Below, in pieces: positions 6,832-19,899 of a stretch of DNA of 37,239 nucleotides. The position numbers were made by a program, and so were the translations under genes. Origin of the DNA: Selenomonadaceae bacterium (GTDB lineage: Bacteria; Bacillota; Negativicutes; Selenomonadales; Selenomonadaceae). The stretch spans positions 1 through 37,239 of the forward strand of contig JAFUXN010000073.1 of assembly GCA_017477125.1 (NCBI GenBank). The letters run 5' to 3'. The notes below the pieces were generated by a model. It was not told the DNA's origin. It was given only the letters and a program-made list of their open reading frames with translations, and made no database searches. Position 1 is the stretch's first letter. Each line of letters opens with the position of its first letter.

Positions 6832-6878
6832 GAGGGCGGGCGCCCGGCGTCGGACGCTCGCCCTTTGAATATTGAATG
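6832..6878. terminator. Bidirectional hairpin terminator between convergent operons
   Basis: GGGCGGGCG pairs with CGCTCGCCC around a GC-rich inner stem. The plus strand continues TTTGAATATT and the minus strand continues CTCTTTTG. It ends the LysR operon from the left and the nine-gene chaperone-like operon from the right. It is about 90 percent identical to the element at 1310-1358, including bases outside the stem. Confidence 0.75.
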
Positions 6879-6887
6879 TCGATCGGA

Positions 6888-9386
6888 TCAATGACGGAAC
6901 CGCTTCGCCAAGACGGCAGCATCGATCAACAATTGCTTGCCTTCGAATTTGTTGAGACGGAACGCTTCTTCTTTGAGCTCTTTGAACAGCATTTCGAGCT
7001 CCGCTCCCGACGGACGCGAGAGTTTGTCATGCTTCTCGTCCTTCAAACTTCTGTACGCCGATTGAATGATCTTTTCGTCAACCCGCTTGATACAATCTTC
7101 CGCGTCGAAGAACGATTTTAGCATGCGCCGCCCGTTGTCCTCCGTCGGATTGTCCATGAACAGATGAGCATCGATCCGCCCGCGACGTTTGATCGCCTCG
7201 TCCAATCGATTTTCAAAGTTGGTCGCCGCCATGAACAAAATCTTTGAATGCTTGCTCCTCAAGCCCGTCTCGTCCGATACGTAGCTCAACAGCGAGCCGC
7301 GCACCACTCCGTTGAGAACATCTCTGCCGACGAGCGAATCAAATTCGTCGAAGAACAGCACGATCCCCGCGCAATCCGCCATCTTCGAAAAGCGCGTGAC
7401 CTCGCTGAAGATGCGCTCGAGATTTTTGATCTGATCCGCCGGGAAGCTCGACGCAAAATCTCTGCTCAACACTTTGAAGAAATAGAAACCGTACTCGCCC
7501 GCGACCGCCTGCGCCAACTTACTCTTGCCGTTGCCGGGCGGACCGTACATCAACACGCCCTTTTGAGGAGTGATCTTGTAATCGTCATAGCGTTTTTTCT
7601 GTTGAGGCGTCGCTCGAATGTAATCGACCTGCCGCGCGATCTGCTCTTTGAGATCGTCATAGCCGATGATGTTCGCCAACCTCAATCGATTGTCCGACGG
7701 CGCCACGATGTTTTCTCGAGTGAACACGCCCAGGCTCGTGAGCTCGTCAATGACACTCTGCTCGCGCTGTTGGAAGATCAGATCGAACAGCGCCTTGGTG
7801 TCGGCATTGTTGCCCGGCTTGATGCCGCTCTCCTCCGCCGCCGCTTTGAATTTCGTCACGAAGGTTTTGATGTCGCGCCCCGACATGCTGTCGGATTTCG
7901 TCAGCACCTGATCTTCAAAGAATTTCCCGTCGAGGCTGAACGTGCCGCCGTCGTACGAAAAATTATCGTTGAAGATCAGTCGGCGCATCTCTTTGGTCGG
8001 CAACGGAATTTTGATCGGATCGCGCGACAGACGACTTTTGATCGCCGGATCGATCGCCTCGGGTCGATTGGTCGCCGCGATCGTAAAGATGCGTTGCTTG
8101 CCGGTCTGCGCGCCGTCGATCTCCTGCAGAAATTGATTGACCATGTCGAGCGTGAATGAGTCCTTATCGCCCGCGCCCAACGCTCGGCTCGGGAACACGG
8201 TATCGGCCTCGTCGATGAACAGGATCGTCGGCGCATTGCCCCGCGCCTCGGCGAACACTCGCTTGACTTTCGCGCTGCTGTGTCCGATGTACTCACCTTT
8301 GAGATCGGCAAGCGTCGGCGCCATGAAGTAGCACTTCTGACGATTGGCGAGCGCCTTCGCGATCATCGTCTTGCCTGTGCCGGGCGGCCCCGTCAATATA
8401 AATCCCTTGAGCGGATTTTGTTTCTCGTCGGCGTTCTGGAAAGTCTCAACCGCTTTGACGATGCGCGCCTTGGTGTCCTCGTCGAGCCGCACCTTATCCC
8501 AATTGACTTCCTCCTTGACGGTGCGTTCGATGCTGTCGGAGAAATCTTCGACGGCGAGACGATTGGGATTCTTGGCGAGCACCGCGCGGAGGATTCTCAT
8601 GCAAGCGCTGAGAGTTTTCTTGCCGACGCTCATGCCATGAGCCGCGTCGTCGAGCGCACGCAGATCGAGATCGTAATTGCGCGGCGCGTTTCGAAGGAGA
8701 TAGCGAAGGTAAGCGTACTTGATTTCGTCCGCCGCGGGATTGCTGACGAAGATTTCTTCCTGATCGAAGTGGTACCGCTTGAGCAATTCCATGTCCTTGA
8801 TGGTCGAGATCATCAGCAGATTTTTGGCGTTCTGCCACAACTGCATGCGCGATATCCAAATGTGTTCGGGCGTGTCGTGAAGGTTGGCGATCCATTCAAG
8901 GTTCTCCAGGAAGATCACGATCTTCAACTTGCCCGCGCGGATCATCACGTCGAGATGATTGAGCATGGTCGTGACGGGATCGGTGGAGGCTTGAGCTGCC
9001 TGCTCGCCCTGCTTGGCGCTCTCGGATTGTTGAGCGTCGGCTTGAGGCTCGGCGGATTTCTTTCTGCTCTTTCTCGACTTGAGCGGAGAATCGGGCTCGG
9101 GCTTGGGGATTTGATCAAGGAAATCGCACTGCTCGATCGTCGCGCCGTTGAGCTTGTAGCATTTGATGTTGTCGTTGGCGTTGGCGACGTGAATGAACAG
9201 GTCGAAGTTGAGCGGCGCGTTGAGATAATAATGCATAAGAGTGTCGGGCACGGTGAGAATGCCCTCGCGCACGCCGTAGAACATGTTGTCGCCAATGCCG
9301 TCGCCCGTCAAGAAGTGAATGATCTGCCCCTTCGCCCGACGGTCTTCGAGCTCCTTGATCAATCGATGCTTATTGCGATAGATCAT
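6888..9386 (-). CDS. Tandem AAA+ ATPase (Cdc48/p97-like layout), last gene of nine-gene operon
   Basis: The 832-residue protein carries two full AAA+ modules. Module one has Walker A GPPGTGKT (about 333-340), Walker B ILFIDEAD (388-395), the pore-like segment GEYIGHS, and sensor/arginine region AATNRPEAIDPAIKSR. Module two has Walker A GPPGNGKS (615-622), Walker B VLFFDEFD (676-683) and AATNFENRLDEAIKRRGR. AAA+ rings of this kind unfold or remodel proteins. The first 300 residues also look ATPase-like (IVIFLENLEWIANL, LLMISTIKDMELL) but have no Walker A; an acidic and lysine-rich low-complexity stretch (about 93-135) interrupts them. The ATG overlaps the upstream stop (ATGA). Partners in the operon include an Hsp70-like ATPase, so a disaggregase or remodelling role is likely but unproven. 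Confidence 0.85.
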   Translation of the reverse strand: MIYRNKHRLIKELEDRRAKGQIIHFLTGDGIGDNMFYGVREGILTVPDTLMHYYLNAPLNFDLFIHVANANDNIKCYKLNGATIEQCDFLDQIPKPEPDSPLKSRKSRKKSAEPQADAQQSESAKQGEQAAQASTDPVTTMLNHLDVMIRAGKLKIVIFLENLEWIANLHDTPEHIWISRMQLWQNAKNLLMISTIKDMELLKRYHFDQEEIFVSNPAADEIKYAYLRYLLRNAPRNYDLDLRALDDAAHGMSVGKKTLSACMRILRAVLAKNPNRLAVEDFSDSIERTVKEEVNWDKVRLDEDTKARIVKAVETFQNADEKQNPLKGFILTGPPGTGKTMIAKALANRQKCYFMAPTLADLKGEYIGHSSAKVKRVFAEARGNAPTILFIDEADTVFPSRALGAGDKDSFTLDMVNQFLQEIDGAQTGKQRIFTIAATNRPEAIDPAIKSRLSRDPIKIPLPTKEMRRLIFNDNFSYDGGTFSLDGKFFEDQVLTKSDSMSGRDIKTFVTKFKAAAEESGIKPGNNADTKALFDLIFQQREQSVIDELTSLGVFTRENIVAPSDNRLRLANIIGYDDLKEQIARQVDYIRATPQQKKRYDDYKITPQKGVLMYGPPGNGKSKLAQAVAGEYGFYFFKVLSRDFASSFPADQIKNLERIFSEVTRFSKMADCAGIVLFFDEFDSLVGRDVLNGVVRGSLLSYVSDETGLRSKHSKILFMAATNFENRLDEAIKRRGRIDAHLFMDNPTEDNGRRMLKSFFDAEDCIKRVDEKIIQSAYRSLKDEKHDKLSRPSGAELEMLFKELKEEAFRLNKFEGKQLLIDAAVLAKRFRH

Positions 9387-10117
9387 TTCTCGTCCTCCGC
9401 GTCGGCGGGAAATCGAGCGAACAGATCGGCGAGCAGTTGTTGCTCGTCGCGGCTCATGGTTTTCTCCGACCGTTTGAGTTCATTTTTGACGTCGTTGACG
9501 ATCTTCTGTTGCTTGCCGAAACTCTCTTCGTGCTCGCGAATCTGCGCGCGCAACCGACGCTCCTCATCTCTCAACGCGTCGATGTCGTGCTCGAGCTTCT
9601 CTTTGCTCAGTTCGGATTGCAAACGCTCAACCTCCGCCTCGAGCGTCGCCTTCCGCGATTGCAAATCCTTGAACTGTTCGCCGCGCGCGCGGAGGTCATT
9701 CGCCTTCTTCTCGAGCTGATCAACGTCGTGCTTGTAATTGTCGAAGAGGCGGGTCGAGCCGCCGCTCTTGCTCTCGATGAACGTCAGCGTCTCCTTCAAA
9801 CTTCTGCAGAATTGTTGCGAGCGATCGAAGCCCTTGATGAAATTGGCGTCGCCGCCCCGAACGTCGAGGAGCACACGCGCGAGCAGTTCACGCGACAGCG
9901 GATATAAACTTGCCAGGCTCTGAATGACGAGCTCGCGTTGCTCGTCCGAGAGGTCGTTGAGCTCGTCGCAAACCTGTTCGGCTCTGGAGCGTTTCATGTA
10001 CCAAAGCAGTTCGGGCAGCAGCTCGATATTGCCGTCGTCGCCGATCACCTTGTCGATGGAGAAATCGGCGTCGGCGAGTGTCGCAAAGAAATGTTCGATG
10101 TGGGGTTCGCTTGCCAT
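9383..10117 (-). CDS. Coiled-coil protein of the chaperone-like operon (244 aa)
   Basis: No family recognised. Residues about 1-100 are globular and helical (EHFFATLADADFSIDKVIG, ELLPELLWYMKRSRAEQV, SLYPLSRELLARVLLDV). Residues about 115-225 form a long charged coiled coil (DVDQLEKKANDLRARGEQF, LQSELSKEKLEHDIDALRD, RSEKTMSRDEQQLLADLFA). There is no signal peptide or membrane segment, so it is probably cytoplasmic. The ATG follows GGAGGCGATTGAT, and the stop overlaps the start of the AAA+ gene, which implies coupled translation and a fixed ratio with the ATPase. A role as adaptor or scaffold is inference. Confidence 0.65.
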   Translation of the reverse strand: MASEPHIEHFFATLADADFSIDKVIGDDGNIELLPELLWYMKRSRAEQVCDELNDLSDEQRELVIQSLASLYPLSRELLARVLLDVRGGDANFIKGFDRSQQFCRSLKETLTFIESKSGGSTRLFDNYKHDVDQLEKKANDLRARGEQFKDLQSRKATLEAEVERLQSELSKEKLEHDIDALRDEERRLRAQIREHEESFGKQQKIVNDVKNELKRSEKTMSRDEQQLLADLFARFPADAEDEK

Positions 10118-10135
10118 ATCAATCGCCTCCTTCGC

Positions 10136-11602
10136 TCAACCTGCCGCCGTCTGACGAGTGCCGCCGTCGGTCTGAACTTTGCGCTCGGGGTGCAGGACAC
10201 TTCGATCGCCCTTGAGCACGTCGGTGACGGGAATGCCCTCCTCATTGAGACGCTTTGAGATGTCCTTCCACGTCGCGCCGCACGTGCCGCCCACCGATTC
10301 ATGGTGATCGACGTCGATGATGATCTTGCCGTCGGCATCGATGTCAACCCGATCGAAATTGATGGTCTCGTCGCCGATCGAGCACGTGAGTTTGAAACCG
10401 TCGTTGGGATTGTCATTGACGATGCTCAGCCCCACTTGGTAACGCAGATCGGACATGACATCTTGGATCGCGCCTGCGAGCTCGATCTTCTTGAGCATGC
10501 TGTCCTGCAGTTTGATGCCGACGTCGCGCGCCTCCATGACCAGTTCCGAGGCGCGCTTGAGTTTGTCGATGCCCTCCAAGAATTTCTCGTCGCGGATCAG
10601 ATCGCGGGCGGCGTCGACTGCCTGTTGATATCCCTTGCGCAAATCCTTGCCGCCGTATCGATTGATGTAATCAAACATCTCCGTCCGTTGAGCGTCGGCG
10701 CCCTCATTGTAATAATCGATCGGCTCAACCAATTCGAGCGTCGCCAGCCCCTCAACCTCGTCGAGCATGCCTTCGGCGTCCGCCTTCTGCCGCTTCCACA
10801 ATTCGACCCGCGCCTGCAATTTCGTCTTGAACGTCGCGATCGAGCCGAACACGCCGTTGAATTTATTGATGACCGCCTCATCGCTGCTCTTGCTCTCGCG
10901 CTCGACATCGCTCTTGAGCTCGGCGTACTCGCTCGAGAAAAATTTTGTCGCCCAACTCTTATCGATCCCGTCGAGCTGCCGACGAAGTTCCTCGCGCATT
11001 TCGTTCGCCTGCTTGCGCTTCTTGGCGACGTCGTTCATATCATCGAGCTGCTTGATCATATCGGACAGTTGATTGGAATCCGCGCGGATCTGATTGAGAG
11101 TGCGGCTTGCCGATTGCGACACCTGATTGGCTCTGGTTTGGAGCGCCGAACGTTGATCGCGCAAACTGCCGTACCTGCCGACCAACTGTTGCGCACGACG
11201 GTACTCGTCATCGCAGTAATGGGGCTTGGTTCGAATGATGTTGCGAATGGCTTCCGCCTCTCTGTCTGCATCGCTCAATTGCCGATCGAGATCGTTGAGC
11301 GTCGACTTGATATTCTTGTCCTCCGACGCGTTGAGCTTGACCTTCGACAGCGCCGCCTTCAAATCTTCGAACGCTTTGAGTTGAGCCTTCGCCTTGTCGC
11401 CGAACATCGTTTCCGCCTCGGCGCTGACGTCGGCGTTGAGCTTCTCTGCGTCCGATTGGAGCGATTTGATCTTCTCCATGCACTGACGGAAGTTATCCAG
11501 CGACTTCTCGATCTGATCGTTGAACGTTCGATCGGACATTCGGCGCACGTCCTCGCCCTGACGCAGGACTGCCGCCACCTCGGAATTTTTTTTGCCGCTC
11601 AT
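10136..11602 (-). CDS. Long coiled-coil protein with small C-terminal beta domain (488 aa)
   Basis: No family recognised. Nearly all of residues 20-390 is heptad-rich helix (DQIEKSLDNFRQCMEKIKS, RDQRSALQTRANQVSQSA, LARLELVEPI-type breaks are few), so the protein is probably an extended rod. The final 90 residues differ: KLTCSIGDETINFDRVDID, GKIIIDVDHH and CGATWKDISKRLNEEG suggest a small mixed beta domain. It lacks a signal peptide. The ATG at 11602 lies eight bases after the radical-SAM stop. The rod shape and position next to the AAA+ and Hsp70-like genes suggest a structural or adaptor subunit; this is inference. Confidence 0.65.
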   Translation of the reverse strand: MSGKKNSEVAAVLRQGEDVRRMSDRTFNDQIEKSLDNFRQCMEKIKSLQSDAEKLNADVSAEAETMFGDKAKAQLKAFEDLKAALSKVKLNASEDKNIKSTLNDLDRQLSDADREAEAIRNIIRTKPHYCDDEYRRAQQLVGRYGSLRDQRSALQTRANQVSQSASRTLNQIRADSNQLSDMIKQLDDMNDVAKKRKQANEMREELRRQLDGIDKSWATKFFSSEYAELKSDVERESKSSDEAVINKFNGVFGSIATFKTKLQARVELWKRQKADAEGMLDEVEGLATLELVEPIDYYNEGADAQRTEMFDYINRYGGKDLRKGYQQAVDAARDLIRDEKFLEGIDKLKRASELVMEARDVGIKLQDSMLKKIELAGAIQDVMSDLRYQVGLSIVNDNPNDGFKLTCSIGDETINFDRVDIDADGKIIIDVDHHESVGGTCGATWKDISKRLNEEGIPVTDVLKGDRSVLHPERKVQTDGGTRQTAAG

Positions 11603-11611
11603 AAAAATGCA

Positions 11612-12217
11612 TCACTCCCTCAACAATCGTCGGGCGAAATCCGCCTCGAAATTCTTGGCGGGAATCCCCACCATAAAAAGTTCGCCGTCCTCTCGACAGA
11701 CGAACTCGACGCTTCGATTGTGCACCGCCTCCATCTGCTCTTTGAACGGCAGATATTTTGTCGACAGAAAATGGATCATCTGATTATCCGACCCGCGATA
11801 AATTTTGTTGGTGTTGAGCTCCTCAACGTACTCGCCGGCGATCAGCAGGTCGATGCTCGAAAGTATTTCATCAACCGAAGGCTCGTGCCACGCTCTCAAC
11901 TCCTCGAGCGTATAACCCGAGTACATCATCACGTCGAGCGTCGACTCCGCGCGGATCAATCGGATCAGTTTGACGAGCTCGTTCGATTGAAGAAACGGCT
12001 CGCCGCCGCTGACGGTGATCCCTGTCAACGACGGCGTCCCCATGATCTCTCGAAACAACTCATCGACGCCGATATGATACCCGTTCGAATCGAGCGCCCG
12101 CCCGCGCGGATTGATGCAATTCGGGCAGCGCTTCTTGCAGCCCTGAACCCAAACGGCGTAACGCGTCCCGGGATCGAGCACTTTGGTTTGGCGTTCGCGG
12201 TGTTCGATGTAGAGCAT
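11612..12217 (-). CDS. Radical-SAM activase (NrdG-like), no glycyl-radical partner nearby
   Basis: The 201-residue protein has the short radical-SAM form seen in activating enzymes such as NrdG. The cluster motif is CKKRCPNC (Cys27, Cys31, Cys34; CX3CX2C), followed by GITVSGGEPFLQ, the SAM-binding GGE motif, and VMMYSGYTLEELR. Such enzymes cleave S-adenosylmethionine reductively and usually install a glycyl radical on a partner enzyme. No glycyl-radical enzyme or nrdD is seen in the operon or window. The gene is embedded in the operon: its ATG overlaps the TGA of the GrpE-like gene (TGATG), and eight bases separate it from the next gene. The target may be one of the neighbouring proteins. Starts further upstream would lie inside the preceding gene. 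Confidence 0.85.
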   Translation of the reverse strand: MLYIEHRERQTKVLDPGTRYAVWVQGCKKRCPNCINPRGRALDSNGYHIGVDELFREIMGTPSLTGITVSGGEPFLQSNELVKLIRLIRAESTLDVMMYSGYTLEELRAWHEPSVDEILSSIDLLIAGEYVEELNTNKIYRGSDNQMIHFLSTKYLPFKEQMEAVHNRSVEFVCREDGELFMVGIPAKNFEADFARRLLRE

Positions 12218-13599
12218 CAGAGATTGCCCGCTTTGATCTGCGCCTTCGAATAGACGTTGCCGTTCCTCGAGCAGATCAGCGGCACGTAGACGGCGGTCAT
12301 GAAACGGCTCTGCTTGTCGTTGGGATTGGTCATGTTGATCGCCTCGTTCTTGTCGAAGGGCGCCTTGTTGAACGGGCTGTCGACGGGCTTCTTGCCGCCG
12401 GGCAACACAAACACATCGAAGTTGACGCCCCACGCCTTGCGATAGCACTTATTGATCGCGACGTAGACTTTGATCTCGTCGTCGGTCATGGGCTGAGCGT
12501 CCTCCTTCTTGAGTTTGAGCGCGCATGCCTGGACGGATTTGGCGAAGTCGATGGTCTTGCCGACGGCGCTGACGATGGCGACGAGCTGTTCGGGATTGGA
12601 GCCCTCGACCTTATTCTCTTGGAGGATCGATTCGAAGGTCGGGCAATCGCGCAGGGCAAGAATGAGTTCGATATAGGGCTGGGTCAATTGATCCCAAGCA
12701 TCGAGATCGGATTGAAGATTGGTGACGGTGCCGCGCAATTCTCCGATGCGACGATTGAGATCGCTGAGGAGCGTCTGATCTTCATCGAGACGACGACGGA
12801 ACTCGCCGATCCGATCGTTGAGCCCGTCGATCTCATTCTGTTTATCGCCAAGCTGACCGTTGAGAGCATCGATCGCATTGTTCTTCTCATTGAGCTGACT
12901 GTTGAGCCCACGGATCTCCTGTTGCTTGCCGTCGACCTCGCCGTTGATCCGATCGATCTCATGCTGCTTGCCGTCGACCTCACCGTTGAGCCGATCGATC
13001 TCCTGTTGCTTGCCGTCGACCTCACCGCCGAGCCGATCGATCTCCTGTTGCTTGCCGTCGACCTCACGTTGCTTTTCATCGAGCCAACTTTTGAGACCGT
13101 CGATATCGTTCTGCTTGTCGTTGAGCTGATTGTTGAGCCCGTTGATTTCGTTTTGCCTCTCGTTGAGCTGACCGTTGAGCCGATCAATCTCATTCTGCTT
13201 TTTGGTGACGGCATCCTTCGACGCGTTGATCGTCGCGGTGAGAGATTCAATCCGACGCTTGAGGCTGTCGACCTCATCATTGTTTTTACTCGAGAACAGA
13301 TTTTCGAACCAACTCTTCAGCCCCATAATTTCCTCTCTCTGCTGATTGATAATATTCGCCTGCTGCTCGACGATCTCTTTGAGCGCCTGCAGATTGACGT
13401 TGACTGCATTGAAATCGTCGGCGTAAACTTTTTTGTTGAGCGCCTCGACCGTCGGAGCCTCGCCCTCGACGGGAATGCGATCGCCGTCGGCATCGTAGAA
13501 CTCGAACCTCATGCTCAAAGCCTCGGTCTCGTTCGAGCGCCAAGACATATTGCCGCGCATGAACATTTCGATCAGCGCCTTCAAATCCTCATTGGTCAT
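12217..13599 (-). CDS. Coiled-coil repeat protein with GrpE-like C-terminus (460 aa)
   Basis: Residues 1-70 form a small domain (MRFEFYDADGDRIPVEG) similar to the start of the 141-residue protein encoded next upstream. Residues about 80-315 are a very long coiled coil. Its core is about ten copies of a 14-residue unit of the form KQxEIDxLNxxLx (for example DGKQQEIDRLNGEV). The last 130 residues are globular and end with a short beta segment (PFDKNEAIN, VYVPLICSRNGNVYSKAQ). That order of long helix then beta wing, and the tail pattern, recall GrpE, the nucleotide-exchange factor of DnaK. Given the Hsp70-like ATPase two genes upstream, an exchange-factor role is plausible, but the similarity is weak and read by eye. 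The ATG follows GAGGTGGTACC. Confidence 0.7.
   Translation of the reverse strand: MTNEDLKALIEMFMRGNMSWRSNETEALSMRFEFYDADGDRIPVEGEAPTVEALNKKVYADDFNAVNVNLQALKEIVEQQANIINQQREEIMGLKSWFENLFSSKNNDEVDSLKRRIESLTATINASKDAVTKKQNEIDRLNGQLNERQNEINGLNNQLNDKQNDIDGLKSWLDEKQREVDGKQQEIDRLGGEVDGKQQEIDRLNGEVDGKQHEIDRINGEVDGKQQEIRGLNSQLNEKNNAIDALNGQLGDKQNEIDGLNDRIGEFRRRLDEDQTLLSDLNRRIGELRGTVTNLQSDLDAWDQLTQPYIELILALRDCPTFESILQENKVEGSNPEQLVAIVSAVGKTIDFAKSVQACALKLKKEDAQPMTDDEIKVYVAINKCYRKAWGVNFDVFVLPGGKKPVDSPFNKAPFDKNEAINMTNPNDKQSRFMTAVYVPLICSRNGNVYSKAQIKAGNL
12895..13062 (-). repeat. Four tandem 42-bp coding repeats
   Basis: Units at 12895-12936, 12937-12978, 12979-13020 and 13021-13062 share the core GATCTCCTGTTGCTTGCCGT with few changes. 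Each encodes one 14-residue heptad-pair of the coiled coil in frame. More diverged units flank them. Confidence 0.85.
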
Positions 13600-13625
13600 G
13601 GTACCACCTCACATTCGTTTGCGGA

Positions 13626-14051
13626 TCAATCCTTGGTCAACTGCGTAAAGAAGTCGTCGATGAACTGATTCATCAGCTCCGTCTCGTGTATCAGGCTTTC
13701 GACGTGCTCACTGAGTCCGGCATTTTTTGTTTTCAACTGCTCGATCTGCCGCGTCAATTCTTCGATCCGCGCTTGCTGTTCATCGATTTGAGCGTCGCGC
13801 TTCTCAAGCTCGCGCCTCAAATAATTGACCGAGCCGACGAGTTCCGAATGCTTGCCGAGCTCATAATGAACGTCGGCGAGAATTTGTCTGACGTCGCGGA
13901 ACTCTTGTTTGAAATCGGTCGACTGAAGTTCCTCGAGACTGATCGGATTGCCCTCCTCGTCGAGGAAGTCAAAACTCAACCGAAAAAGTTCGCCGTCAAC
14001 CGTCGAGCCGAGCCCTCCGCTAAAGAACAGTTCCAGCAACTTCTCGTCCAT
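13626..14051 (-). CDS. Small coiled-coil protein of the chaperone-like operon (141 aa)
   Basis: The first 45 residues (LLELFFSGGLGSTVDGELF, LSFDFLDEEGNPIS) match in pattern the start of the 460-residue protein downstream: a short helix, then F-x-F-x-D-x-D-G-x-x-I. Residues about 60-125 are one coiled coil (LRRELEKRDAQIDEQQARI, ELTRQIEQLKTKNAGLSE). There is no counterpart of the GrpE-like tail. It looks like a short paralogue that could form mixed coils with the longer protein. The ATG follows GGAGGTGATGATCAC. It has no signal peptide. Function unknown. Confidence 0.65.
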   Translation of the reverse strand: MDEKLLELFFSGGLGSTVDGELFRLSFDFLDEEGNPISLEELQSTDFKQEFRDVRQILADVHYELGKHSELVGSVNYLRRELEKRDAQIDEQQARIEELTRQIEQLKTKNAGLSEHVESLIHETELMNQFIDDFFTQLTKD

Positions 14052-14084
14052 GTGATCATCACCTCCAATCGATCGGCGCCGCGC

Positions 14085-16949
14085 TCAATCGTTGAGCTTG
14101 AGGATCATCGCCTCATTGACGGGCTCATCGTTCGAAGGTGCCTCTCTCCTGCTTCCGATCCTGAATTCGATTGTGTCTTCGGTGTGAACGCGAACGTAGA
14201 GCGTCATCTTCTTCGGGTCCTTGACGAATTTCGCCACGCTCGCCGACAACGGGATCAACGTGTTGCGATCGATCACCGGGTCTTTCGTGTACCAGAGTTC
14301 GGTTTTCTTCGTCTCCTTGCTGACTTTGCCCGCCGCGCGCCAAGCGGTTTCGACGTTGTTCTTCTCGATCACCTTCACCGGATTATCATTTCTCGGATCG
14401 ATGTACACGACGTTGAATTGGAACGGCGGACGCTCATCTTCGCCGATCTTGGCGCCCGCATTCTTATAACCGAACAGCCCCAAGCGCAACTGCCCGAACG
14501 CCACCGCCGTCTTCTCATTGACCTTATACATGTCATCGAGCCGCTCATCGTTGAGCCCCTCGCCGATCCGTTCGATGTAATTGCGATCGGCATTGACGGG
14601 GAACGTTTGCGTCATGATCTCGTGCACGAAATGCTGACGGCTCGCGTTGCCGCCGAGGAAGATGTGCACGTCGTCCGCGTTGAAGTCGTCGAGCCCCGCC
14701 TCATGGATCGCCTCGATGTTGCGGGTGAAGTTCAGCTCCATGGTCGTCTTGAACTTCTCGATGATATCTCTGATCTGATCCTCAATGAAATCATCGATGC
14801 CCGTCACCGTCAATTCCAAACCTTCAACGGGACTGCCGTCGGCACTGCGCAATGACGGGAACCGAACCATGCCGTCGGAGAGGAACTTCACCTCGTCCTC
14901 GCTCTCGCCCTTGAACAATTCTTCCAAGCAGTTGTCGGCACTGAGCCCGTCGTAGTCCGCGGGATTATATTTGAACAGCGTGCGAGCCAAATTCTCTTTG
15001 AGCATGTAGACATTGCTGTTGGCGATGTCGTCACCGCGTTCGCTGAGCAGTCCTTCATAGCCGCCCGGCACAAATTCACCTTCGGGCAACACGAATTTGA
15101 TCCGATTCTCGACCATCGTATCTTGATTGTCGCAATAAATCTTGTAAGCGAGCTGATGAATGAGCTTCTCGCCGCCTGCCGTTTCATCGCCGTCGGTACC
15201 GAAGTTCTCAATGATCAACTCGTCGTCGGTGTCGTCGCTGTCGAGCGCCGCGCGGAACATGCCGAATGCGAAGTCGACGGTGCCGCCGCCGAGATCGAAG
15301 ATCGCAAACATCTGCGGAGTTTCGTCGTCGTCGAGTTTAAGTTGTTTGCCGACGATTGCGCCCGCGCATGCGATCGGCTCGGGGTAATCCATCTGCACTT
15401 TGATGAGCGGCATGCCCTCTTCGTCGACGGCGTCACGCAAAGTTTTGGGCAACGCGCGTCTGATCCCGTACTCGAGCGATTGACGAATGCTTTCGCCGAT
15501 CGTCTTCTTGTTGAACTTCACCGGGTAGCTGATCTGATACGTCTTATAAAATTTCTCGTTGGCGGGGTTGTTGATGGCGCGGCTGAGCAGGTAGCCGTAG
15601 AAGGCGATCGGATTGAATTTCTGATTGGTGTTGTCCTCGTCGGCAAGCGAATCGGTGAGAATGACGGGCTTGGCGGCGTCGCCCTTCTCGCCGAAGTAGG
15701 GAGTAAATTTGAGCTCATTGCCCTTGGCGAGCAGCGACGGGATCATCTTGAGCTGAGTGATGATCGATGCCATCTTGCGACGGGAGACTTCGCCTTCGCC
15801 GACCGTCTGATATTCGTCCTCGACGGTATAGCCCGAATCGTAATCGGCGTTCTTGTCATCGATGTAGCCGTCGATCTTGGTGAGGAAGAACGGGCAATTT
15901 TCGTTGGCGCTCTGCCACTGATTGAAGACCTCGCCCCAATTGTAGATCATGAGGTTGGTCGGATTTTCGTAGGCGTTATCTTTGGAGTCCTTGTTGAGTT
16001 TGTAATTGCCCGAGAGGCTGAAGAGGCGATCCTTGCCCTTGGCTTTGATGGCGGCGCAGGTTGAGGAGGTGCCGAAGTCGAGCGAGACGACGTTATCATC
16101 GAGCAAAGGATTTTCGCCGTCGCGCAGACGAGTGTCGCGAACGCAGATTTTGATCGGGAACGAGAAGACGACATTTTCATGGGTCGACGCGTAAGTGTTA
16201 TGTATTTCGAATCTGCCCATGAACTCGGGGGCGTGCTCGGCGATGTCGTTGTCCTCGAGCGCCGCGCCGAGTTTATTGGTGTCGATATAGACGTGGTACT
16301 TGCGTTCGGGAGTTTTCAGCGAGCTCTTGACGCAGCGGATTTCTTCTTCGAACACCGGAACGATATCGATGCCGTTGATCTGATGCCAGTAGAGGCATGC
16401 CTTTTGAGTGAGATCGGAGTAATCTTTTTCCTCGGGCAATCCCTCAATGGTGATCTCGAATTTCCTGAAGCCGTGCATGGTCCAGATGCCGCAGGTATTC
16501 GAGAAGAGCAGGCTCGACGGGATTTCGGGATAACCGAACATGTCTTTTTCGGTGATGTCGCAGTAGGAAATCTTTGGGAAGTCCTTCGTATCGTCGGGAT
16601 CGGACAGGAAGAAGTCCTTGCTCAAGCCGCGGAACATATTGCTGTTACGTTTCCGCCGCGCGAACTCGCTGACGCTTTCGGGATCGACGTACTCTTCACC
16701 GAGGGCGATGTACTTGAAGAACTCGTAATCGTCGATGGTGTCATTGGCGTCGTACTCGGCATAAAAGCGGACGAGCGCCCGTTCCGGATTGAATTTGTCG
16801 AAGTTGAAGGGCAGCCTGATATTTCCGAGCCCCGCGCCGTCGGGATCAAAGCTCTCGCATTGATAATATTTGGTTTCGCCGCCGGCGTCTGTGAATCTCA
16901 TGAAAAACTTTTGGAACCGCGTGGTGGTGGGTCTGCTGTCAATGTCCAT
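14085..16949 (-). CDS. Hsp70/actin-fold ATPase with long N-terminal extension (954 aa)
   Basis: The nucleotide-binding signatures of the Hsp70 superfamily are all present: phosphate-1 VVSLDFGTSSTCAAIK (about 287-302), connect-1-like YPEPIACAGAIVG (522-534), phosphate-2 FAIFDLGGGTVDFAFG (548-563) and adenosine motif VHIFLGGNASRQHF (761-774). The first 285 residues are an extra beta-rich domain absent from DnaK, and the C-terminal 130 residues are not a normal substrate-binding lid. The protein is therefore a specialised relative, of the size class of SrfB-like proteins, though I cannot claim that family. The true start is the ATG at 16949 behind GGGGGAG; translation upstream of it is the out-of-frame shadow of the preceding gene. 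A GrpE-like protein and a tandem AAA+ ATPase are encoded in the same operon. Confidence 0.85.
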   Translation of the reverse strand: MDIDSRPTTTRFQKFFMRFTDAGGETKYYQCESFDPDGAGLGNIRLPFNFDKFNPERALVRFYAEYDANDTIDDYEFFKYIALGEEYVDPESVSEFARRKRNSNMFRGLSKDFFLSDPDDTKDFPKISYCDITEKDMFGYPEIPSSLLFSNTCGIWTMHGFRKFEITIEGLPEEKDYSDLTQKACLYWHQINGIDIVPVFEEEIRCVKSSLKTPERKYHVYIDTNKLGAALEDNDIAEHAPEFMGRFEIHNTYASTHENVVFSFPIKICVRDTRLRDGENPLLDDNVVSLDFGTSSTCAAIKAKGKDRLFSLSGNYKLNKDSKDNAYENPTNLMIYNWGEVFNQWQSANENCPFFLTKIDGYIDDKNADYDSGYTVEDEYQTVGEGEVSRRKMASIITQLKMIPSLLAKGNELKFTPYFGEKGDAAKPVILTDSLADEDNTNQKFNPIAFYGYLLSRAINNPANEKFYKTYQISYPVKFNKKTIGESIRQSLEYGIRRALPKTLRDAVDEEGMPLIKVQMDYPEPIACAGAIVGKQLKLDDDETPQMFAIFDLGGGTVDFAFGMFRAALDSDDTDDELIIENFGTDGDETAGGEKLIHQLAYKIYCDNQDTMVENRIKFVLPEGEFVPGGYEGLLSERGDDIANSNVYMLKENLARTLFKYNPADYDGLSADNCLEELFKGESEDEVKFLSDGMVRFPSLRSADGSPVEGLELTVTGIDDFIEDQIRDIIEKFKTTMELNFTRNIEAIHEAGLDDFNADDVHIFLGGNASRQHFVHEIMTQTFPVNADRNYIERIGEGLNDERLDDMYKVNEKTAVAFGQLRLGLFGYKNAGAKIGEDERPPFQFNVVYIDPRNDNPVKVIEKNNVETAWRAAGKVSKETKKTELWYTKDPVIDRNTLIPLSASVAKFVKDPKKMTLYVRVHTEDTIEFRIGSRREAPSNDEPVNEAMILKLND

Positions 16950-16977
16950 TAGGATATCTCCCCCTTGTCGAGTGTGA

Positions 16978-18150
16978 TTATTTTTCGTTGGCGAGAACGC
17001 CGACGTCCATGAGCTTGAGGTTGATGTCGTTGTTGTAGAGTTGAGCGAGACGGAGCATGTGCCAGGCGTTGGAGAAGGCGGGCGACAACGTTTTGTAATC
17101 GAGCGCCTGAATCGAGCGGTAAAGGCTCGTCTCCGTCCGGCGACGTTGCTTGATGTGATCGATGTAATTGGCGACGAACTTTTCACCGGCGGCGCGCTTG
17201 ATCGCATCGACCGCGGGCTTGCGACGGACGGAATCATCGATGCCGATTGCCGCCTCGAGCAGGTCTTGAAACAGGACGAATTTTTCATGCTCGCGCGGCA
17301 TGTCTGCGATGAGCCGATTGAAATTCTTCCTGACGGATTGATTATCGAAGCCGCCCTCGCCCGCCGCGTGCAGATAAGTTTCGAGCTCGATCGCCGAAAT
17401 CCTCAACTCGCGCGCAAGGTACTCGATCCGAATGAGCGTCTCGACATCGAGCTTGCCCTCGGCGGCGGCGGTGTCGACGATCAAACTCAAATACTCTTTG
17501 CGGAATTTGACGGCGGCATCGGCGAACGGATGACGCTCGCCCGCGATCGATATCGTGGTCAATCGGAGCAGTAAAAATTCCTGCGCGAACGTCATGAACT
17601 TCTCGTCCAACGGGTAGCGCAATACGAAATCGCCGGCGCGCTCGAAATTTGTCTCGGGGAGCAACTCAATGCCGTCGAACGTGAACCGAATGTCGGCGTA
17701 ATCGTAATGATCGATCCGATTGGTCTGATCGCGAAGATAAATCCCGTCCTTGGCGACGATCAAAAATTTTTGGCGGTTGTATTCGGAGTTGTCGGCGCCG
17801 AGCAGATGAATCGCCGCGATATTTTCTTCGGCGACGTCGCTTTCGGACAATCGTTCGTCGACCTTCCTCATGTAAGGGCAATCGAGCCTGTGACGTTGGC
17901 GGCAGGCACTTGAACCGATCAGCAATCGCTCGTCGGCGTCGTCGGGGTCGGGGTACTGATCGATTGTCTGATCGTACTTGCGAGCGAGCGAATCGATCAC
18001 GACGTTGCGCATTCGGAAGTCGAGCGGAAAGTAATGCGTTTCGGTTGCGTGCAGGAGGATGTTCTTGCGGATATTGGGCACAACGATTTCATCTTCGCCG
18101 AGTTCGGGATAAATCATGTCGGCTTTGTCGATGGGCTCCACGCTTTTCAT
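16978..18150 (-). CDS. TerB-like helical protein of the chaperone-like operon (390 aa)
   Basis: No full-length match recognised. Residues about 125-200 are beta-rich (KFLIVAKDGIYLRD, ADIRFTFDGIELLPE) and could be a PH-like domain. Residues about 220-270 (YLSLIVDTAAAEGKLDVET, LIRIEYLARELRISAIELE) have the length, spacing and acidic turn of TerB, the helical domain of tellurite-resistance and related stress systems. Near residue 80 there is a C-x8-C with an intervening His (CRQRHRLDC). It is cytoplasmic by sequence. The ATG follows GGAGGCGATGAT and the gene ends 28 bases before the Hsp70-like gene. The TerB assignment is a by-eye inference. Confidence 0.65.
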   Translation of the reverse strand: MKSVEPIDKADMIYPELGEDEIVVPNIRKNILLHATETHYFPLDFRMRNVVIDSLARKYDQTIDQYPDPDDADERLLIGSSACRQRHRLDCPYMRKVDERLSESDVAEENIAAIHLLGADNSEYNRQKFLIVAKDGIYLRDQTNRIDHYDYADIRFTFDGIELLPETNFERAGDFVLRYPLDEKFMTFAQEFLLLRLTTISIAGERHPFADAAVKFRKEYLSLIVDTAAAEGKLDVETLIRIEYLARELRISAIELETYLHAAGEGGFDNQSVRKNFNRLIADMPREHEKFVLFQDLLEAAIGIDDSVRRKPAVDAIKRAAGEKFVANYIDHIKQRRRTETSLYRSIQALDYKTLSPAFSNAWHMLRLAQLYNNDINLKLMDVGVLANEK

Positions 18151-18177
18151 ATCATCGCCTCCAATCGAGCGGGGAAC

Positions 18178-18351
18178 TCAGAACAGCTTGCGGATGCCGC
18201 GCGTGATCTTCGCCACGACCGTCACGACTTTGCTCTTGGCTTTGGTCGTTTCGGACTGCTTGGCGGTCTCGCTGATAATTTCGTGCGTGACGGGGATTTT
18301 GATTTCGATGTCGTTCTTGACGGCGGGATAAATCATTTGCCTCTCTTCCAT
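18178..18351 (-). CDS. 57-residue basic protein, first gene of nine-gene operon
   Basis: The small protein starts MEERQMIYPAVKNDIEIKIP and has a lysine/arginine-rich second half (KAKSKVVTVVAKITRGIRKL) that could form an amphipathic helix. The ATG at 18351 follows GAGGTGATCAAC, a clear ribosome site, and only 27 bases separate its stop from the next gene. A longer reading frame starting at 18456 would run through the leader terminator and has no ribosome site, so I reject it. No family recognised. A peptide that docks on nucleic acid, membrane or a partner protein is possible. Confidence 0.6.
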   Translation of the reverse strand: MEERQMIYPAVKNDIEIKIPVTHEIISETAKQSETTKAKSKVVTVVAKITRGIRKLF

Positions 18352-18388
18352 GTTGATCACCTCGACTAAAATTTTCATGATCGCAATC

Positions 18389-18417
18389 AAAAAAGCATGG
18401 TCGATTAAACCATGCTT
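18389..18417 (-). terminator. Leader terminator before the nine-gene operon
   Basis: Minus strand: AAGCATGGT, a seven-base loop, ACCATGCTT, then six T. It is a perfect nine-pair stem 38 bases before the first gene. It may serve as the gdhA terminator, as an attenuator of the operon promoter upstream of it, or as both. Confidence 0.7.
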
Positions 18418-18448
18418 ATCGATAACAATTAAATCACAGTCGGCGCCT

Positions 18449-18494
18449 GCGTTCAAGTACAGATAATATACCCGTTAGTTGAACGCGGCGTTAA
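18449..18494 (-). promoter_or_regulatory. Promoter and inverted-repeat operator of the nine-gene operon
   Basis: Minus strand: TTAACG (18494-18489), an 18-base spacer, and TATATT (18470-18465). A perfect eight-base inverted repeat, GCGTTCAA at 18449-18456 and TTGAACGC at 18479-18486, brackets the -10 region with its centre near 18467. This is the arrangement expected of a repressor operator. No dedicated regulator gene is seen in the operon. Confidence 0.5.
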
Positions 18495-18525
18495 GGGGGC
18501 GGAAAAATTTTCGTGGCGCGAGGGA

Positions 18526-19899
<1,374 letters not shown>

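Follow-up and report, generated by a model that had tools for sequence, protein, structure and literature searches.

In the Zorya systems of types I and II the effectors are ZorCD or ZorE, according to PMC11890865, and the predicted conflict operons of PMC7159879 include operons that contain HSP70 and GrpE, and also operons in which a radical S-adenosylmethionine (SAM) gene stands beside AAA+ proteins. Here we describe an operon of nine genes in a DNA stretch of 37,239 nucleotides (the window, always meant at its full length) from a bacterium of the Selenomonadaceae (contig JAFUXN010000073.1, assembly GCA_017477125.1), which codes for an Hsp70-fold ATPase of 954 residues, a tandem AAA+ ATPase, a radical SAM protein and four coiled-coil proteins, besides an adaptor and a small protein called sm57 (Table 1). 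With confidence somewhat better than even, we read it as the conserved core of a chaperone-centred conflict system of Negativicutes, probably anti-phage and motor-less in the window, the defence role being proposed from genomic context only.

With Zorya the system shares homologues of ZorA and ZorB, which belong to the same run of genes as the core at three of six loci; it differs in its soluble part, which is here an Hsp70/GrpE-like/AAA+/radical SAM core, and in that the window copy lacks ZorAB. The GAP1-N2 GTPase-centred systems (Kaur et al. 2020, PMC7159879) also bring a GTPase, Hsp70 and GrpE together in one predicted conflict operon but have GAP1, FNIII and DnaJ/TPR parts, whereas here there are a tandem AAA+ protein, a radical SAM protein, coiled coils, ZorAB in the relatives and another Hsp70 N-terminal region. 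The FtsH ternary systems of that paper are likewise AAA+ conflict operons, in which the product of a radical SAM gene has been proposed to modify the peptide effector; in contrast, no vWA domain was found here among the Pfam matches listed (a scope that holds for all our Pfam statements on the operon proteins, the best 25 rows being covered for three of them), and the AAA modules score 173.6 bits against an FtsH cut-off of 600. The type III CoCoNuT systems (PMC11090510) combine coiled coils with an Hsp70-like protein whose motifs are described as partly degenerate, whereas the motifs are intact here, and no row named McrB or McrC was among the matches listed for our operon. DnaK-GrpE-ClpB has the Hsp70 fold and an exchange factor in common with our operon and differs in operon content. 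SrfABC consists of an Hsp70-like protein plus a GTPase, and no SrfB or SrfC row was found for the window proteins among the Pfam matches listed, and none for the 954-residue protein. SrfABC, DnaK-ClpB and the Ter clusters were rejected by gene content, in agreement with the initial annotation of this DNA, which had found that none of them fitted. No description of the gene set was found in the literature (open-licence PMC papers), PMC11890865 and PMC7159879 included.

The set is a conserved system: seven of the genes, coding for the adaptor, the Hsp70, the 460-residue coiled coil, the radical SAM protein, the 488- and 244-residue coiled coils and the AAA+ protein, are found again with unchanged order in five further genomes of Negativicutes, with protein identities of 23–60%, as the initial annotation had predicted. 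A family-wide search of 189 genomes with the AAA+ protein gave four orthologs besides the window copy (47–57% identity), all of them carrying the gene set. The full order from adaptor to AAA+ is found in L068 (public record OMWS01000056), L069 (Selenomonas massiliensis NZ_LT985756, a name that leads to Candidatus Centipeda massiliensis in the NCBI taxonomy) and L071 (public record JALFXV010000036), and in genome G521 the set is split over two contigs, L074 (CAJOCT010000077) and L070, whose ends share an exact overlap of 99 bases. A profile of the 488-residue protein, searched in 380 genomes of the class, returned seven matches, six of them clear, and added L083, from another family, where the genes run in order from Hsp70 to AAA+, the contig ends inside the AAA+ gene and the adaptor was not found. 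The core order is kept in 6/6 loci and the adaptor in 5/6, with identities of 39–48% for the Hsp70, 52–60% for the radical SAM protein, 28–43% for the 488-residue protein, 45–57% for the AAA+ protein and 23–32% for the 244-residue protein; judged from these comparisons, the synteny of the core is old and maintained.

The seventh class match (E 6.7e-4) was rejected as coiled-coil noise, since a single weak AAA match was all that its locus showed of the core. Among 393 genomes sampled from the phylum the only clear match to the 488-residue profile was the window's own genome, three further matches (E 3e-4 to 1e-3) being also taken as coiled-coil noise. Searches with the adaptor retrieved only the adaptor itself from the relatives set (37 genomes) and from 398 genomes of the phylum, and no relative from plasmids; these single-protein negatives were misleading, because the right relatives emerged in the family-wide AAA+ search. 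No relatives were retrieved with protein P0001 from viral contigs and genome contigs, with the Hsp70 and 488-residue alignments from viral contigs, or with the AAA+ protein from phage records at 1e-30. The class and phylum genomes are samples, and other phyla were covered by exact-pattern scans and by plasmid and phage records only. A flanking gene tried as an empty-site marker was discarded, because at 1e-60 the window's own genome was the only one of 60 in the genus to have a homologue. Transposase-type genes (PDDEXK_2, DDE) flank two loci, L069 at 18329–19162 (minus strand) and L068 at 17118–18467 (minus strand), which is consistent with mobility.

On sequence grounds the 954-residue protein is a member of the Hsp70 superfamily, as its signatures had suggested from the outset. 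A 12-sequence profile of its family gave 29 PDB rows at E ≤ 1, all of them Hsp70-type chains (best 1.1e-4), and the nucleotide-site motifs, which we take to be those labelled phosphate 1 and 2, connect and adenosine, are kept with small changes in 6/6 orthologs. The protein alone matched no Pfam family at E ≤ 0.1 and no NCBIfam family, and its only PADLOC row was a weak candidate model at 22.5 bits. The additional N-terminal region, first described as foreign, is indeed present, but it is conserved among the orthologs and therefore does not represent a chance fusion.

We also found that the 460-residue protein joins to its coiled coil a C-terminal domain that is, by profile comparison and predicted structure, GrpE-like, which suggests that the operon probably has an Hsp70/nucleotide-exchange pair of its own, with this protein as the putative exchange factor of the 954-residue Hsp70. 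The link goes via the coiled-coil partners of related giant Hsp70s, which hhalign matched to GrpE at 3e-10 (best shuffled 0.028) with 14 of 21 partner sequences, picked by a C-terminal pattern which is biased towards the GrpE motif; all 21 extracted sequences, some of them wrong open reading frames (ORFs), had given E 4.5e-4. The 460-residue family matched the partners at 2.1e-4 (best shuffled 0.047). In the predicted structure the domain has a predicted local distance difference test score (pLDDT) of 93.4, and GrpE chains ranked 1–3 in the VIA list. Two results weigh against this assignment: direct hhalign of the 460-residue orthologs with GrpE gave E 0.24, and neither the PDB sequence-profile search nor Foldseek with the 460-residue protein retrieved a GrpE. 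The 141-residue coiled-coil protein, found among the six loci in the window copy only, is possibly a partial duplicate of the 460-residue protein, given that their N-termini resemble each other better than in any of 1000 shuffles, although the best shuffle comes close (48 vs. 50). Several genus genomes have extra GrpE-domain proteins, in frames of about 225–470 residues, beside a strong GrpE match (for example G016:C30:95035-95460, G015:C7:41075-41542 and G021:C18:14430-14768), the one in G021 lying about 4 kb from a giant-Hsp70 match.

Giant Hsp70-like proteins are more widely spread than the core. They occur, often several per genome, in 25 of 60 genomes including the window's, all 25 belonging to the window's genus (37 of the 60) and none to the 23 genomes from other genera of the class, and in 6 of 398 phylum-sample genomes. 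In 20 giant-Hsp70 loci, several of which end at contig edges, no relative of the radical SAM protein, the adaptor, or the 488- or 244-residue protein was found at E 1e-3; the matches seen were limited to a weak one for AAA and three, also weak, for the 460-residue protein. A coiled-coil gene lies directly upstream of 18 of 31 giant Hsp70 ORFs (23 loci, including two plasmids and L071), as counted with a profile built largely from these same partners, and one of the ORFs without a partner is located at the edge of a contig. The 460-residue partner in the window operon, by contrast, is downstream of the Hsp70, not upstream. The pair of giant Hsp70 and coiled coil is also found on plasmids of Acinetobacter piscicola and of a Helicobacter (2.8e-12 and 1.8e-8), the Acinetobacter pair being near a HerA-like ATPase, a HEPN gene and a dynamin gene. 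HerA-like ATPases (PADLOC rows mad8/HerA) lie near giant Hsp70 genes at L045 4492–7773 and L056 7144–10287, which represent a genome from the same genus as the window and an Acinetobacter plasmid, and these HerA-linked proteins are perhaps another Hsp70-linked defence type. In L049 (6483–18901), the genes after a giant Hsp70 and its GrpE-like partner code for an AHH-nuclease protein and an Imm11 immunity protein, and a protein with a phage-baseplate/type VI secretion spike domain is encoded at a greater distance; L043 and L048 have homologous runs of genes. A possible role of this Hsp70 is that of a chaperone for a toxin-delivery cassette.

The neighbours of the core suggest a role in conflict. 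Homologues of ZorA and ZorB lie directly 5' of the adaptor in three of the six loci (L068, L069 and L074), with best model matches of 1.4e-19 to 2.4e-17 for ZorB (OmpA domain) and 3.3e-13 to 4.9e-10 for ZorA, the ZorA-like protein of L069 having no Pfam match. These three loci, from genomes of three genera, have an identical and nearly gapless order of ZorA, ZorB, small protein, adaptor and Hsp70, a small ORF being the only item between motor and adaptor. GTPases of the dynamin or Leo type are found beside three loci, including one of those with ZorAB: LeoBC (5.6e-78) and LeoA (1.4e-92) dynamins stand directly 3' of the core in L071, where another giant Hsp70 and its coiled-coil partner are encoded 5' of the core; a dynamin is 3' of the core in L068, besides ZorAB; and a LeoBC-like GTPase (2.9e-11) is 5' in L083. 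In L083 an LRAT-domain protein (3.5e-6; 9592–10224, minus strand) is also located 5' of the core. The LeoA/LeoBC dynamins of PADLOC presumably form the system called Eleos, with which the relatives thus share neighbours, but the Leo models do not cover the core genes and the window operon has no dynamin.

With models from the relatives (three in-frame ZorA sequences), neither ZorA nor ZorB was found in the window, L071 or L083, and L075 gave no more than a weak match to a coiled coil (6.3e-4). The window genome, 91% complete, has no ZorA match and one weak OmpA-type ZorB match elsewhere (1.5e-7). Among the PADLOC matches listed for the nine window proteins there was no ZorC/ZorD, ZorE or type III soluble partner and no LeoA/LeoBC row; for the 460-residue protein, the best 25 of its 45 rows include a single ZorA match, which covers the coiled coil (3.4e-5). 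In a four-protein tree, which covers the six loci, the window falls inside the ZorAB-bearing group, with support of 100 with L069, 81 without L069 and 59 for the window together with G521. Motor loss is the simplest history for this nesting, and the window copy probably lost its motor.

It could be argued that the core is an unrelated conserved operon which landed by chance beside Zorya-like and Leo-type systems in mixed defence islands, given that ZorAB is present in only 3/6 loci and that the 3' neighbours vary (a NERD-helicase in L069, a helix-turn-helix gene in G521, a dynamin or LeoBC/LeoA in others). We consider this unlikely, since the near-gapless identical order in three genera argues for one machine and not for a shared island, and the window still retains a small protein of the motor–adaptor junction. 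Quite unlikely, in our opinion, is an assembly or maturation machine for an envelope structure or a coiled-coil filament, powered by ZorAB-like (MotAB-type) motors and having no immune role. MotA/MotB-type proteins do power envelope machines outside defence, coiled-coil rods and a tandem AAA+ protein suit assembly work, and no effector was recognised in the core among the matches listed; on the other hand, the upstream motor genes match the ZorA/ZorB defence models, another locus has LeoBC/LeoA instead, and the spread across genera is patchy (6 clear cases among 380 class genomes), unlike that of a housekeeping machine. A stress operon in which a specialised DnaK/GrpE pair and a Cdc48-like unfoldase disaggregate or degrade damaged proteins would account for the Hsp70, GrpE-like and AAA+ parts, but is improbable, given that the window genome has an ordinary GrpE as well, that the operon has no J-protein or convincing protease among the Pfam matches listed, and that the radical SAM protein, the small motif protein and the motor and GTPase links would be left unexplained.

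A small protein precedes the adaptor in 4/6 loci and shares with it an N-terminal aromatic-Pro motif, a pattern defined post hoc, after inspecting the sequences; sm57 occupies the position held by the small ORFs between ZorB and the adaptor in three relatives. The adaptors of the relatives are 28–39% identical to that of the window. The TerB-like label given to the adaptor at first was not confirmed: 0/5 members match TerB (a helical domain whose accession we take to be PF05099) in Pfam at E ≤ 10, and the PDB profile of the family gave a best E of 0.48, the fold search being dominated by the PH-like part. The radical SAM protein has the CX3CX2C motif claimed for it (CKKRCPNC), a GGEP motif and a Fer4_12 match (1.5e-28), and its cysteines are kept in 6/6 loci; its description as an activase found less support, the protein scoring 102.6 bits against the curated NrdG cut-off of 126.1, with no glycyl-radical enzyme among the Pfam matches listed for the operon. 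The AAA+ protein does have two complete, Cdc48-like modules, with both Walker A/B pairs, a sensor-1 AATN and PF00004 in two stretches (5e-56). Its first module keeps the Walker motifs in 6/6 loci and the second ring is kept in the five complete genes, but with Ala for Gly in Walker A in two of them (L069 and L071).

As first annotated, the nine genes are packed on the minus strand, filling 6888–18351 with spacings of -4 to +33 bp and a possible ATG start in all nine. Domain searches recognised the two AAA modules, the NrdG-like radical SAM domain and coiled-coil-type matches for the four rods, and Pfam and NCBIfam gave no family for the 954-, 390- and 57-residue proteins. Four coiled-coil proteins were likewise borne out, since heptad periodicity as strong was seen in only 0, 0, 2 and 0 of 200 composition shuffles for the 141-, 460-, 488- and 244-residue proteins, and it was not raised in the adaptor (70/200) or the Hsp70 (135/200). 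Of the shared promoter and terminator proposed at first, the terminator is well supported (a 96-nt stretch at -36.9 kcal/mol, z -3.9, 0/200 shuffles as good) and the promoter is not above chance (6 consensus matches in the region vs. 5.3 expected); one consensus match lies upstream of the operon, but after it comes a terminator-like hairpin, which probably serves the glutamate dehydrogenase gene that is the 5' neighbour. The 174-nt stretch 5' of sm57 folds into strong hairpins (z -5.2, 0/200 shuffles as strong) and may serve as terminators for the upstream gene or as a leader of the attenuator type; an Rfam assignment was rejected (best E 0.015, no family reaching its gathering score). The initial reading of an undescribed, co-conserved chaperone-like operon is thus retained, apart from its TerB and promoter parts, and it had also proposed that the Hsp70 and AAA+ enzymes might act on a common substrate or filament and that the radical SAM enzyme might mature a component. 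The GrpE-like domain, the Zorya/Leo linkage and the small motif protein were not part of it, as they are not visible from the window copy by itself.

Table 1. Features of the operon and its borders in the window.
Feature	Position	Strand	Remarks
sm57, 57-residue small protein	18178..18351	-	N-terminal aromatic-Pro motif (MEERQMIYPAVK)
390-residue adaptor	16978..18150	-	IYP motif at the N-terminus; weak PH/FERM-F3 likeness at residues 54-199, followed by a helical domain
954-residue Hsp70-fold ATPase	14085..16949	-	Extra N-terminal region ~1-285, then Hsp70 nucleotide-site motifs, C-terminal region
141-residue coiled-coil protein	13626..14051	-	Window copy only
460-residue coiled-coil protein	12217..13599	-	C-terminal GrpE-like domain ~301-460
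201-residue radical SAM protein	11612..12217	-	CX3CX2C, NrdG-like
488-residue coiled-coil protein	10136..11602	-	Conserved C-terminal domain; marker of the system in searches
244-residue coiled-coil protein	9383..10117	-	Heptad periodicity
832-residue tandem AAA+ ATPase	6888..9386	-	Cdc48/VCP-like modules and own N-terminal region
Intrinsic terminator hairpin	6833..6864	-	3' of operon; T-rich tail to ~6823
Structured intergenic region/leader, 174 nt	18352..18525	-	Separates sm57 from the glutamate dehydrogenase gene; contains a terminator-like hairpin at 18393-18417

Starting from the observed parts, order, motifs and neighbours, we infer a scheme in which an envelope or membrane sensor (ZorAB in the relatives) would signal via the small protein and the adaptor, both with the aromatic-Pro motif. 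This signal would start the Hsp70 cycle, to be reset through nucleotide exchange by the GrpE-like protein, and the client would be released or loaded on the coiled-coil scaffold, while the tandem AAA+ ring would pull the client apart or recycle it. The radical SAM enzyme would modify one component, possibly the small protein, and the window copy, having presumably lost the motor, would carry the core alone. A bolder version, which we put forward only tentatively, is that of a new immune machine in which a Zorya-type ion-flow motor drives an Hsp70-GrpE-AAA+ engine primed by a radical-SAM-modified aromatic-Pro messenger, the motor being swappable for dynamins or lost.

If true, this would join three ideas rarely found in one system, namely an envelope motor, a dedicated chaperone cycle and radical SAM chemistry, and the giant-Hsp70 family would gain a testable role and a partner, the GrpE-like coiled coil. 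The complete locus of Selenomonas massiliensis, together with the motor-less variant of the window, would make the contribution of the motor directly testable.

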